Part shown: piece after piece, positions 33,761-38,977 of the stretch | Layout: every line of letters begins with the position of its first letter | Position numbering within the stretch: position 1 is the first letter of the stretch | Origin: Raineyella sp. W15-4 | GTDB lineage: Bacteria; Actinomycetota; Actinomycetes; Propionibacteriales; Propionibacteriaceae | Assembly: GCF_033170155.1 (NCBI RefSeq) | Contig: NZ_CP137079.1 | Location: 2,604,001-2,668,000, forward strand | Reading direction: 5' to 3' | Length of the DNA stretch: 64,000 bases | The notes under the pieces: generated by a model | Told to the model about the DNA's origin: nothing | Database searches by the model: none | The model's input: only the letters and a program-made list of their open reading frames with translations | Made by a program: the position numbers and the translations under genes

Positions 33761-34615
33761 TCACTTCAACAGGCGATCCATCCGCCGATCGCTGAGCCGG
33801 CGGCCGCCGGTCTGGCAGGTCGGACAGTACTGCAGCGACTTGTCGGCGAAAGCGACCTCGGCGATGTCGGTGCCGCACATCGGGCACGGCAGCCCGGTCC
33901 TGGCGTGCACCCGGTAGCCGGCGTGCTTGATGCCCTTGAGCCGGTCCAGCGGCTGTCCCGCCATCGCCTCGGCGGCCCGCCCGAGCACCTCACCGATCGC
34001 GGCGTGCAGCCGACCGGTCTCGTCGACGCCGAGGGTCTTCGCCGTCGCGTACGGTGACAGCCGCGCCGCGTGCAGGATGTCGTCGGAGAAGCCGTTGCCG
34101 ATGCCGGCCATCAGCATCTGGTCGGTGAGCACCGTCTTCAGCCGGGCGCCGGTGCCGGCCAGGATCGCACCGAGCTCCTCGACCGACAGGCCGGCCGCCT
34201 CCGGTCCGAGGCGCGCGATCTCGGGCAGTGTCGCGGGGTCGGCGGCGACGTACGCCGCCACGCCCTTCTTGGTGCCGGCCTCGGTCACGTCGAGCGCCGA
34301 CCCGCTGTCCAGGACGAGGCGCAGCGCCAGCGGGCCGCGGCCCGGCCGGACCGGGGTCTTCGGGGTGGTGGCGCGCCAGTGCAGCCAGCCGGCGCGGGCC
34401 AGATGGAGGGCAAGGTGGACGTCCTCGCAGCCGAGCAGCAGGAACTTGCCACGCCGCCCGACCTCGGTCAGCCGCTTGCCGATCAGGGCGGTGTGCGGCG
34501 GGTCGGCAGTCTTCAGCACCGAGAACGAGGCGAGGTCGACACGCTCGACCAGCCGGCCCGCGGCACGCTCCCGCAGGAAGGCCGCAGCGGCGTCGAGCTC
34601 GGGGGCTTCCGGCAT
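33761..34615 (-). CDS. Fpg/Nei family DNA glycosylase
   Basis: This bifunctional glycosylase/AP lyase for oxidised bases has 284 residues. After Met removal the N-terminus is Pro-Glu (MPEAPEL), the catalytic pair. A conserved Lys follows in GKFLLLG, and the C-terminal zinc finger has C-x2-C-x16-C-x2-C (CPMCG ... CPTCQTGGR). GNGFSDDILHAARLSP replaces the commoner GNIYVNE. It is probably an actinobacterial Fpg-like branch and not the main MutM. The ATG is preceded by CATAAT at 6 bases, a leaderless promoter overlapping that of the divergent pcm gene. Confidence 0.88.
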   Translation of the reverse strand: MPEAPELDAAAAFLRERAAGRLVERVDLASFSVLKTADPPHTALIGKRLTEVGRRGKFLLLGCEDVHLALHLARAGWLHWRATTPKTPVRPGRGPLALRLVLDSGSALDVTEAGTKKGVAAYVAADPATLPEIARLGPEAAGLSVEELGAILAGTGARLKTVLTDQMLMAGIGNGFSDDILHAARLSPYATAKTLGVDETGRLHAAIGEVLGRAAEAMAGQPLDRLKGIKHAGYRVHARTGLPCPMCGTDIAEVAFADKSLQYCPTCQTGGRRLSDRRMDRLLK

Positions 34616-34632
34616 GCGGCCATTATGGACCT
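34616..34632. promoter_or_regulatory. 17-bp divergent spacer with overlapping leaderless -10 boxes
   Basis: The palindrome CCATTATGG (34620-34628) gives CATTAT on the plus strand (34621-34626), 6 bases before the GTG at 34633, and CATAAT on the minus strand (34622-34627), 6 bases before the ATG at 34615. The two -10 boxes share five base pairs, so only one polymerase can open this site at a time. Confidence 0.6.
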
Positions 34633-35217
34633 GTGAGCACAGCAGCGACGATGTCCGACATCCTGCGGGTGATGCGGGACCTCGGGCGTGTCCCGTTTCT
34701 CCGGGCGGCGGAGCGGCCGTACGCCGACATCGACCTCCCGCTGCCGATCGGTCACGGCCAGACGAACTCCCAGCCGTCCACCGTGGCGGCGATGCTGGAG
34801 CTGCTCGAGGTGCCGGCCGGCGGGTCGGTGCTGGACGTGGGAGCCGGCTCGGGCTGGACCACCGCGCTCCTCGCCCGGCTGGTCGGATCGTCCGGCCGGG
34901 TGACCGGGGTCGAGAGGATCCCCGACCTGACCCGCCGGGCCGCCGCGACGCTGGCGACCCTGGGCCTGCCGTGGGCCGAGATCCACCAGGCCGTCCCGGG
35001 CCTGCTCGGGTGGCCCGCCGCGGCGCCGTTCGACCGGATCCTGGTGTCGGCCGACGCCGAGCGGCTGCCGATGGATCTGGTCCACCAGTTGGCCCCGGGC
35101 GGCATCATGGTGATCCCGGTTGCCTCGGTGATGCACCGGATCCGGCAGGAGATTTCCGGCCGGATCGTCGACACCCGCCACGGGCCGTACTCCTTCGTGC
35201 CGCTGATCCCCTGGTGA
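34633..35217 (+). CDS. pcm: Protein-L-isoaspartate O-methyltransferase-like
   Basis: This SAM-dependent enzyme, 194 residues, would repair isoaspartyl residues in damaged proteins. N-terminal family features are VPRFLRAAERPYADID-like sequence (VPFLRAAERPYADIDLPLPI) and GQTNSQPSTVAAMLELL; the SAM loop is VLDVGAGSGWTTALLA. At 194 residues it is slightly shorter than E. coli Pcm. The GTG at 34633 fits the leaderless spacing; an ATG six codons later is the alternative. A distinct methyltransferase substrate cannot be excluded. Confidence 0.83.
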   Translation: MSTAATMSDILRVMRDLGRVPFLRAAERPYADIDLPLPIGHGQTNSQPSTVAAMLELLEVPAGGSVLDVGAGSGWTTALLARLVGSSGRVTGVERIPDLTRRAAATLATLGLPWAEIHQAVPGLLGWPAAAPFDRILVSADAERLPMDLVHQLAPGGIMVIPVASVMHRIRQEISGRIVDTRHGPYSFVPLIPW

Positions 35218-36463: not shown

Positions 36464-38977
36464 CTACCGGCCGAGGTGCCGGGCCAGGTACCGGCCGGTG
36501 GTGCTGGCGTCGGCCCGGGCGATCTCGTCGGGGGTGCCGACGGCGATGATCCGGCCGCCGGCCGCGCCGCCGCCGGGCCCCATGTCGATCACCTGGTCGG
36601 CGTTGGCGATCAGATCCAGGTCGTGCTCGATCACGATGACGCTGGCCCCTCGGTCGGTGAGTCGCTGCAGGACGTCGAGCAGCGTACGGACGTCGAGTGG
36701 GTGCAGTCCCACACTGGGTTCGTCCAGGACGAAGACCGCGCCGGACTGGTCGCGGTGCAGCTCGGTGGCCAGCTTGAGCCGTTGTGCCTCCCCGCCGGAC
36801 AGCGCCGGGGTGTCCTCCCCCAGCGTCAGGTAGCCGAGGCCGAGGTCGTCCAGGGCGCTGAGCCTGCGGCGCACCGCCGGGAGGTCGCCGACCACGCCGA
36901 GGGCTTCCCGTACGGTGTGGCCGAGCAGCTCGGGCAGCGCGATGCCACCGCGGCGGATCTCGAGGGCCCGCGGGGCGTAGCGGCTGCCACCGCAGTCGGG
37001 GCATGGGATGTCGATGTCGGGCAGGAACTGCACGTCGAGGGAGACCTGCCCGGTGCCCTCGCAGCGTGGGCAGGCCAGCGACCCGGTGTTGTAGGAGAAG
37101 TCCGAGGCGGTCAGCCCGAGCCGGGTCGCGTCGTCGGTGGCGGCGTACGCCTTGCGCAGGTCGTCGTAGACGCCGGAGTAGGTGGCGACGGTGGAGCGTA
37201 CGTTCACCCCGATCGGCGTCGCGTCGACGGTGTGCACCCGGGTGATCCCGTCCGCCTCGATCGTCCGGACGTGACCGGGGACCCGGCCGGTCCGCCCGGA
37301 TCTCCCGTTGCCGGATCGCCCGGCGAGGGCGACCAGGGCCGGCACCAGCGAGTCCAGCACAAAGGTGGTCTTGCCCGACCCGGACACGCCGGTGACGGCG
37401 ACCAGCCGGCCCCGGGGGATGTCGACCCGGAGCGGCCGGACGGTGTGGATCGCGGCGGTCTCCAGACGGATCCGGCCGATCGAGAACATCTCCGCCGCGG
37501 TGACCCGTTCCCGGACGACCACCGGCTGGTCGCCGGTCAGGAATCCGCCGAGCAGCGACGCCGGGTCCCGCTGCACCGCGGCGACCGGGCCCTGGGCGAG
37601 CACGGTGCCGCCCTCGGTACCCGAGCCCGGCCCGATCTCCACCAGCCAGGTGGCCTCGCGGAGGATCTGGACGTCGTGGTCGACGAAGACGACGGAGTTG
37701 CCGTCGGTGAGCAGGTCACGCATCACCCCGAGCAGGCCGTCGACGTTGGCCGGGTGCAGCCCGATCGAGGGCTCGTCCAGCACGTACAGCACGCCGGTGG
37801 TCTCGTTGCGGACGGCCCGGGCGAGTTGGACCCGCTGCAGCTCTCCGGTGGAGAGCGTCGCCCCTGCTCGGTCCAGGGTGAGGTAGCCCAGCCCGAGCTG
37901 GATGAGCCGGCGGGCCATCCCGAGCAGGGTGTCTACCAGCGCGTCGGCCATCGGCAGCATCTCCGCCGGGAGCGTGCCACGGACCGTCGGCGCCCAGGCG
38001 ACGACGTCGTCGAGGGTCAGCGCGGTGACATCGGCCAGGCCGAGGTCACCGATCCGTGGGGTGCGGGCCGCCTCCGACAGTCGGCTGCCGTGGCAGTCGG
38101 GGCAGGTGCCGGTGGTGAGGAACTTGGCGATCCGCTGCACGGCGCGTTCGTCCTTCGCGGTCCGCAGCGCCTCCTCGACGGTGAGTCGGGCGTTGCGGAA
38201 GGTGAAGTCCAGTTCCACGAAGCGGCCGGTCTTGGTGGTGACGCTGATGTGCCGCTTCTCCTCGGGCCCGTGCAGGACGATGTCGCGCTCCGCGGCGGTG
38301 AGCTTGTCGAACGGCACCTCGGTGCGGACCCCGAACTCGGCGACGACCTGGGGCATCACCTTGAAACCGATCATCTGCCAGGAGGCCACCGCGCCCTGGT
38401 CGATGGACTTCGAGCCGTCCGGCACCAGGGTCGCCTCGTCGACGGCCCGGACGACGCCGGTGCCGGCACAGGTCGGGCAGGCCCCGCCGGAGTTGAAGGC
38501 GAGCGCCTCGGCGCCCGGTGGGGTGACGGCGGCCCCGCACACCGGGCAGCGGATCGGGATCTCGGCCGCGACGTCGATGGTCGGCCCGATCCGGTGGCCG
38601 TTGGGGCACCGGTGGGAGGCGAGCCGGGAGAACATCAGCCGCAGCACGTTGAGCAGCTCGGTCGAGGTGCCGAAGGTGGAGCGGACCCCGGGCACTCCCG
38701 GGCGTTGGCGCAGCGCGAGGGCCGCGGGCACATGCTGCACCGAGTCGACTGCGGCCCGCGGGGCGTGCGCCATCCGGCGGCGGGTGTAGGTGGACAGCGC
38801 CTCGATGTAACGGCGCGATCCCTCGGCGTAGAGCACCCCGAGGGCCAGCGACGACTTACCCGAGCCGGAGACGCCGGCGATCCCGACGAGCTCCCGCAGC
38901 GGGATGTCGACGTCGATGCCCTTGAGGTTGTGCACCCGGGCGCCGCGAACGGAGATGTGATCGGTGACCTCGTTCAC
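36464..38977 (-). CDS. UvrA paralogue (class II, no UvrB-binding domain)
   Basis: This is a tandem ABC ATPase of 837 residues, about 110-120 shorter than UvrA. The first Walker A is GVSGSGKSSLALG, the second GVSGSGKTTFVLD; signatures are LSTGELQRVQLARAV and LSGGEAQRLKLATEL. Zinc-finger cysteines occur as CPVCGAA, CPTCAGTG, CPDCHGSRL and CPRCEGTG...CPDCGGSRY. Little lies between the first Walker A and the sequence MAHAPRAAVDSVQHVPAALA, fitting loss of the UvrB-binding insertion. Class II proteins are linked to resistance to DNA-intercalating drugs. TAGCCT (38985-38990), 7 bases before the GTG, suggests a leaderless mRNA. Confidence 0.88.
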   Translation of the reverse strand: MNEVTDHISVRGARVHNLKGIDVDIPLRELVGIAGVSGSGKSSLALGVLYAEGSRRYIEALSTYTRRRMAHAPRAAVDSVQHVPAALALRQRPGVPGVRSTFGTSTELLNVLRLMFSRLASHRCPNGHRIGPTIDVAAEIPIRCPVCGAAVTPPGAEALAFNSGGACPTCAGTGVVRAVDEATLVPDGSKSIDQGAVASWQMIGFKVMPQVVAEFGVRTEVPFDKLTAAERDIVLHGPEEKRHISVTTKTGRFVELDFTFRNARLTVEEALRTAKDERAVQRIAKFLTTGTCPDCHGSRLSEAARTPRIGDLGLADVTALTLDDVVAWAPTVRGTLPAEMLPMADALVDTLLGMARRLIQLGLGYLTLDRAGATLSTGELQRVQLARAVRNETTGVLYVLDEPSIGLHPANVDGLLGVMRDLLTDGNSVVFVDHDVQILREATWLVEIGPGSGTEGGTVLAQGPVAAVQRDPASLLGGFLTGDQPVVVRERVTAAEMFSIGRIRLETAAIHTVRPLRVDIPRGRLVAVTGVSGSGKTTFVLDSLVPALVALAGRSGNGRSGRTGRVPGHVRTIEADGITRVHTVDATPIGVNVRSTVATYSGVYDDLRKAYAATDDATRLGLTASDFSYNTGSLACPRCEGTGQVSLDVQFLPDIDIPCPDCGGSRYAPRALEIRRGGIALPELLGHTVREALGVVGDLPAVRRRLSALDDLGLGYLTLGEDTPALSGGEAQRLKLATELHRDQSGAVFVLDEPSVGLHPLDVRTLLDVLQRLTDRGASVIVIEHDLDLIANADQVIDMGPGGGAAGGRIIAVGTPDEIARADASTTGRYLARHLGR

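Follow-up and report, generated by a model that had tools for sequence, protein, structure and literature searches.

Bidirectional promoters most commonly have divergent transcription start sites 18 bp apart, with positions -7 and -11 of the two directions reciprocally coinciding (PMC10268837, PMC12825309). The detailed work on such promoters that we found concerns enteric bacteria. For instance, the basal activity of five bidirectional promoters of E. coli was too low for interference, and competition was seen only after activation (PMC12825309). Leaderless mRNAs and TAnnnT -10 elements have been mapped in P. acnes, a relative of the organism considered here (PMC3848588). A literature search for leaderless genes combined with bidirectional or divergent promoters found nothing relevant, many subscription papers lying beyond its reach.

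The spacer between a Fpg/Nei-family gene (fpg) and a PCMT-family gene (pcm) of Raineyella sp. W15-4 is best read as the known 18-bp kind of bidirectional promoter, in a doubly leaderless form that was not found described. Like the published promoters (PMC12825309, PMC10268837; Warman et al. 2021 as cited there), it has one -10 for both strands, A-11 and T-7 paired, and predicted starts 18 bp apart; the published cases make mRNA both ways, whereas the likeness of fpg/pcm is drawn on starts predicted from the sequence alone. Unlike them, the start codons are themselves the predicted +1 positions, both mRNAs are predicted to be leaderless, and the core promoter fills the whole gap between the genes. 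With actinobacterial leaderless genes, which carry TANNNT 6-7 nt before the start (PMC3898074, PMC3848588), the pair shares the -10 spacing, the lack of a Shine-Dalgarno sequence and the predicted ATG or GTG at +1. It differs from them in having C at the start of the hexamer, a feature of most fpg and pcm relatives, and in an element common to two genes.

Within the window, the 64,000-nt stretch that was analysed, the fpg gene (33761-34615, minus strand) encodes a protein of 284 aa with an N-terminal MPE, the zinc-finger cysteines, and H2TH and zinc finger domains (Pfam PF01149, PF06831, PF06827). The pcm gene (34633-35217, plus strand) begins with GTG and encodes a protein of 194 aa resembling protein-L-isoaspartate methyltransferases (Pfam PF01135, E 6.4e-44). 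The domain matches support both reading frames. Since both proteins fall under the NCBIfam equivalog cut-offs, the NCBIfam PCMT models being matched below cut-off, the names Fpg/Nei and pcm given by the sequence-only reading stand at family level, not as exact enzymes. The automatic gene caller placed the pcm start at ATG 34651. Four Raineyella genomes were compared (G000, that of the window; G001; G002, R. antarctica; and G003), and GTG 34633 is preferred because ATG 34651 is ATT in G003, the only relative with the adjacent pair. Elsewhere in the window, a large reading frame on the minus strand (36464-38977) resembles by eye a UvrA-type ABC excinuclease paralogue.

The intergenic spacer (34616-34632) is 17 bp long and would constitute the whole core promoter region of both genes. 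It holds the palindrome CCATTATGG (34620-34628), with 4-bp arms about one central base pair, in which the two proposed -10 elements overlap by 5 bp: CATTAT on the plus strand (34621-34626), 6 nt from the pcm GTG (34633-34635), and CATAAT on the minus strand (34622-34627), 6 nt from the fpg ATG (34613-34615). The start codons are thus 18 bp apart. A-11 and T-7 are the most important bases of a -10, and the reciprocal A-11/T-7 pairing that marks a bidirectional promoter with a shared -10 is present in the spacer: A34622 and T34626 are used by both hexamers, A-11/T-7 of one being T-7/A-11 of the other. Because the bases of an ANNNT core at these positions are mutually complementary, any element of this type already supplies half a promoter to the opposite strand, with an offset of one base. 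Two start codons at leaderless distance from a common core can only be separated by 18 bp, so that the 6-base distances on the two sides amount to a single coincidence. On both strands the hexamer opens with C in place of T, and the plus hexamer also has T at -9. A T at -18, equivalent to A at +1 of the opposite direction, is a common but not obligatory feature of bidirectional promoters; it is present for the pcm direction (T34615) and absent for the fpg direction, pcm beginning with G. No Shine-Dalgarno sequence was found in the spacer upstream of either start codon. The sequence-only reading had placed the -35 region of each gene within the coding start of the other, which is right as to position only: by eye, no -35 hexamer is recognisable 16-18 bp upstream of either -10, the sequence at that distance being CTCGGG for pcm and CGTCGC for fpg.

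Leaderless starts on both sides are supported by comparison with the wider genome and with both gene families. In a background sample of 40 stretches of the genome (800 kb) together with the window, 864 kb with 673 called genes in all, TANNNT occurred before candidate starts 58 times at 6 nt and 49 times at 7 nt, while other distances gave about 4. Of 47 fpg relatives in the order, 33 have NANNNT 6 nt from the start and 2 have it at 7 nt, with 0-3 at any other distance; the 81 pcm loci gave 35 matches at 6 nt, 10 at 7 nt and about 4 elsewhere. At 6-7 nt from the start, -10 cores are thus above background for both fpg and pcm, which, together with the confirmed coordinates, supports the earlier proposal of two leaderless-type promoters with one -10 palindrome in a 17-bp divergent spacer. 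Both families prefer CAYAMTGG, with C in the first position, and CCATTATGG is approximately what results when this preference is satisfied on both strands. T at the fourth hexamer position, as on the plus strand here, is absent among leaderless pcm relatives, from which fpg is predicted to be the stronger direction.

This geometry is rare. The pattern CAT-N6-ATNATG-N5-RTG has two sites in the 3.96-Mb genome and none in the control. In the 864-kb sample, fpg/pcm alone among 94 divergent pairs has a -10 in common and starts 16-20 bp apart. Between two credible genes, the arrangement with 6 nt on both sides was found at three places in the whole genome, less than 1% of divergent pairs if judged by the 94 pairs in 22% of the genome: fpg/pcm, a DeoR-type regulator (plus) with an MFS-like transporter (minus), both named by eye and with starts 18 bp apart (L318:1325-1347; G000:C1:480824-480846), and glp/MTHFS. 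A second palindromic match, at G000:C1:2797411, was rejected as a double-leaderless pair, having a VapB-like frame on one side and a weak coding signal on the other. As a separate observation, the VapB-like frame begins at this site with CATGCTTACATTATGCAAGCATG, a 23-bp palindrome that is nearly perfect (L213:2412-2434; G000:C1:2797411-2797433), and may be a toxin-antitoxin operator.

Within Raineyella, fpg and pcm are adjacent and divergent in two of the four genomes, G000 and G003. All 17 bases of the G000 spacer are identical in the alignment with G003, which has one extra T before the GTG (18 bp in all); the pcm -10 is therefore 7 nt from the start there and the start codons are 19 bp apart, so that the claim of 6 bases on both sides holds in the window and fails for pcm in G003. 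Conservation of the palindrome had been proposed as a check in relatives with the same gene pair, and it is identical in G003, the only other sampled genome with the pair adjacent; the pair is conserved in no further sampled species. As fpg and pcm are each 84% identical between the two genomes, the spacer identity is suggestive only (0.84^17, about 0.05 by chance), and with only two genomes having the adjacent pair, selection on the pcm direction is inseparable from recent common descent. In R. antarctica, the two genes are still divergent and lie 8 kb apart (G002:C14:304000-318000; NZ_FMYF01000001.1). Its fpg keeps CATAAT-6-ATG with pcm far off, and its pcm has an AGGAGG Shine-Dalgarno sequence ahead of ATG. 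The fpg of G001 has CATACT-6-GTG with no pcm beside it; the best pcm match, 53% identical, is at a separate locus with CACACT-6-GTG. Among the fpg loci examined, pcm was found nearby only in the Raineyella pair and in a distant locus with the genes 1.4 kb apart (L113). The -10 thus probably came to be shared recently, when pcm was placed next to an fpg promoter that already existed.

A DNA-damage box accompanies fpg in other genera. In nine relatives (e.g. L011, L029, L142), a PafBC-type box lies exactly 8 nt upstream of the leaderless fpg -10, with 7-8 of 9 matches to the consensus used for scoring, which we take to be TTGTCRGTG-like, and none was found at neighbouring spacings in those nine. 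By the same presumed consensus, the box is absent from the Raineyella fpg promoter (3 of 9 matches in the window, 1-3 of 9 across the genus), and PafBC control of this promoter was rejected. Raineyella genomes contain 27-34 box-plus-(-10) sites each vs 1-3 control matches. The name and role of the PafBC (RecA-NDp) motif are confirmed by the literature (PMC6789036).

Several other readings of the spacer have to be weighed. If the fpg direction alone were a real promoter, the pcm transcript would originate within the fpg coding region or at some other place, with CATTAT as a by-product of ANNNT symmetry. This would account for the conservation of the fpg -10 in relatives without pcm and for the poorer match of the plus hexamer, and any NANNNT automatically carries an A/T core on the opposite strand. 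Nevertheless, in neither species with the pair does a Shine-Dalgarno sequence precede the pcm start, which lies at leaderless distance (6 nt in one, 7 nt in the other), many pcm relatives are themselves leaderless and have a comparable CAYAMTGG element, and a leadered alternative is backed neither by a Shine-Dalgarno sequence nor by ATG 34651, which is missing in G003; we consider a promoter for fpg alone unlikely. The symmetric CCAT-T-ATGG arms, identical in both species with the pair, might suggest an operator for a regulator of one or both genes, instead of or besides a shared -10. However, the arms are just 4 bp long, and in the R. antarctica fpg promoter CATAATGG is retained while the outer CC is not (GGCATAATGG). 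Leaderless fpg and pcm relatives in general often have GG behind the -10, and the palindrome stands precisely where a -10 should with respect to both starts. All of this leaves an operator very improbable.

The sequence-only reading had further held that polymerases cannot open both promoters at once, so that a DNA-repair and a protein-repair gene would be transcribed alternately. Mutual exclusion is accepted at such promoters: opposing polymerases cannot co-occupy them, and activating one direction can repress the other (PMC12825309). A selected switch could build on this, with competing polymerases tying DNA repair to protein repair through alternating expression. Basal competition was, however, negligible at the five tested E. 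coli promoters (PMC12825309), and since it appeared there only after activation, alternation of fpg and pcm is unsupported. With the damage-activator box that fpg has in other genera missing here, no activator of one direction is visible. In addition, the pair is adjacent in just two sampled species, and the idea that the arrangement exists for the sake of alternate transcription is unsupported; in R. antarctica the genes, 8 kb apart, have separate starts. Such a switch is accordingly judged very unlikely.

We therefore consider it likely that the spacer is a bidirectional promoter in which two leaderless genes depend on one pseudo-symmetric -10 (CATTAT/CATAAT). The housekeeping-sigma RNA polymerase would bind the shared -10 in either orientation, each RNA would begin at the first base of its start codon, with starts 18 bp apart, and both mRNAs would be translated without a leader. 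The two directions would most likely run at low, mostly independent basal rates, fpg being the stronger. In the simplest reading, the ancestral state is a leaderless promoter belonging to fpg, and a single Raineyella lineage joined pcm to the opposite side of it as the two genes came to be neighbours. The fpg/pcm case would then be young, and its pcm direction is an unproven candidate.

A better-conserved instance and a better test case is glp/MTHFS, a divergent pair encoding a molybdotransferase-like divisome protein and 5-formyltetrahydrofolate cyclo-ligase. In the genome of the window (L208:1501-1523; G000:C1:2847391-2847413), one TANNNTA -10 lies between starts 18 bp apart. Loci were taken from 77 Propionibacteriaceae genomes, of which about 66 were distinct with the divergent pair; 52 of these (52 genomes, 22 genera) have TANNNTA and starts 18-20 bp apart, a count that leaves out L270, a weak automatic call. 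Like fpg/pcm, the pair has a doubly leaderless spacing and one shared -10. Unlike fpg/pcm, known in two species, it spans 22 genera and has full TANNNT on both strands, the core usually being TACGATA or TACCATA. The scoring admitted sites with a single full hexamer, yet all 52 have both, which argues for selection on both directions. Family-wide, the TANNNTA pattern shows no excess over control, and only the glp/MTHFS subset is meaningful. The 19-bp form, counted by pattern whatever the genes, occurred in only 3 genomes of a class-wide sample of 297, and the glp/MTHFS-type arrangement looks specific to Propionibacteriaceae. No literature on a shared glp/MTHFS promoter was found, again with many subscription papers beyond the reach of the search.

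If two start codons can both be +1 positions, about 23 bp hold the promoter geometry and the two reading frames fixed, and the arrangement becomes recognisable and datable from sequence alone. Since the genes are separate in R. antarctica, the states before and after the joining of fpg and pcm can be compared, and the 52 genomes with glp/MTHFS at 18-20 bp allow a direct test for selection that keeps shared -10 elements. It is possible, though doubtful at present, that selection maintains the doubly leaderless shared -10 as a device in Propionibacteriaceae, in which start distance and both hexamers are locked, as in glp/MTHFS, and the choice of orientation by one polymerase would set the ratio of two proteins; fpg/pcm may then be a young instance of it.
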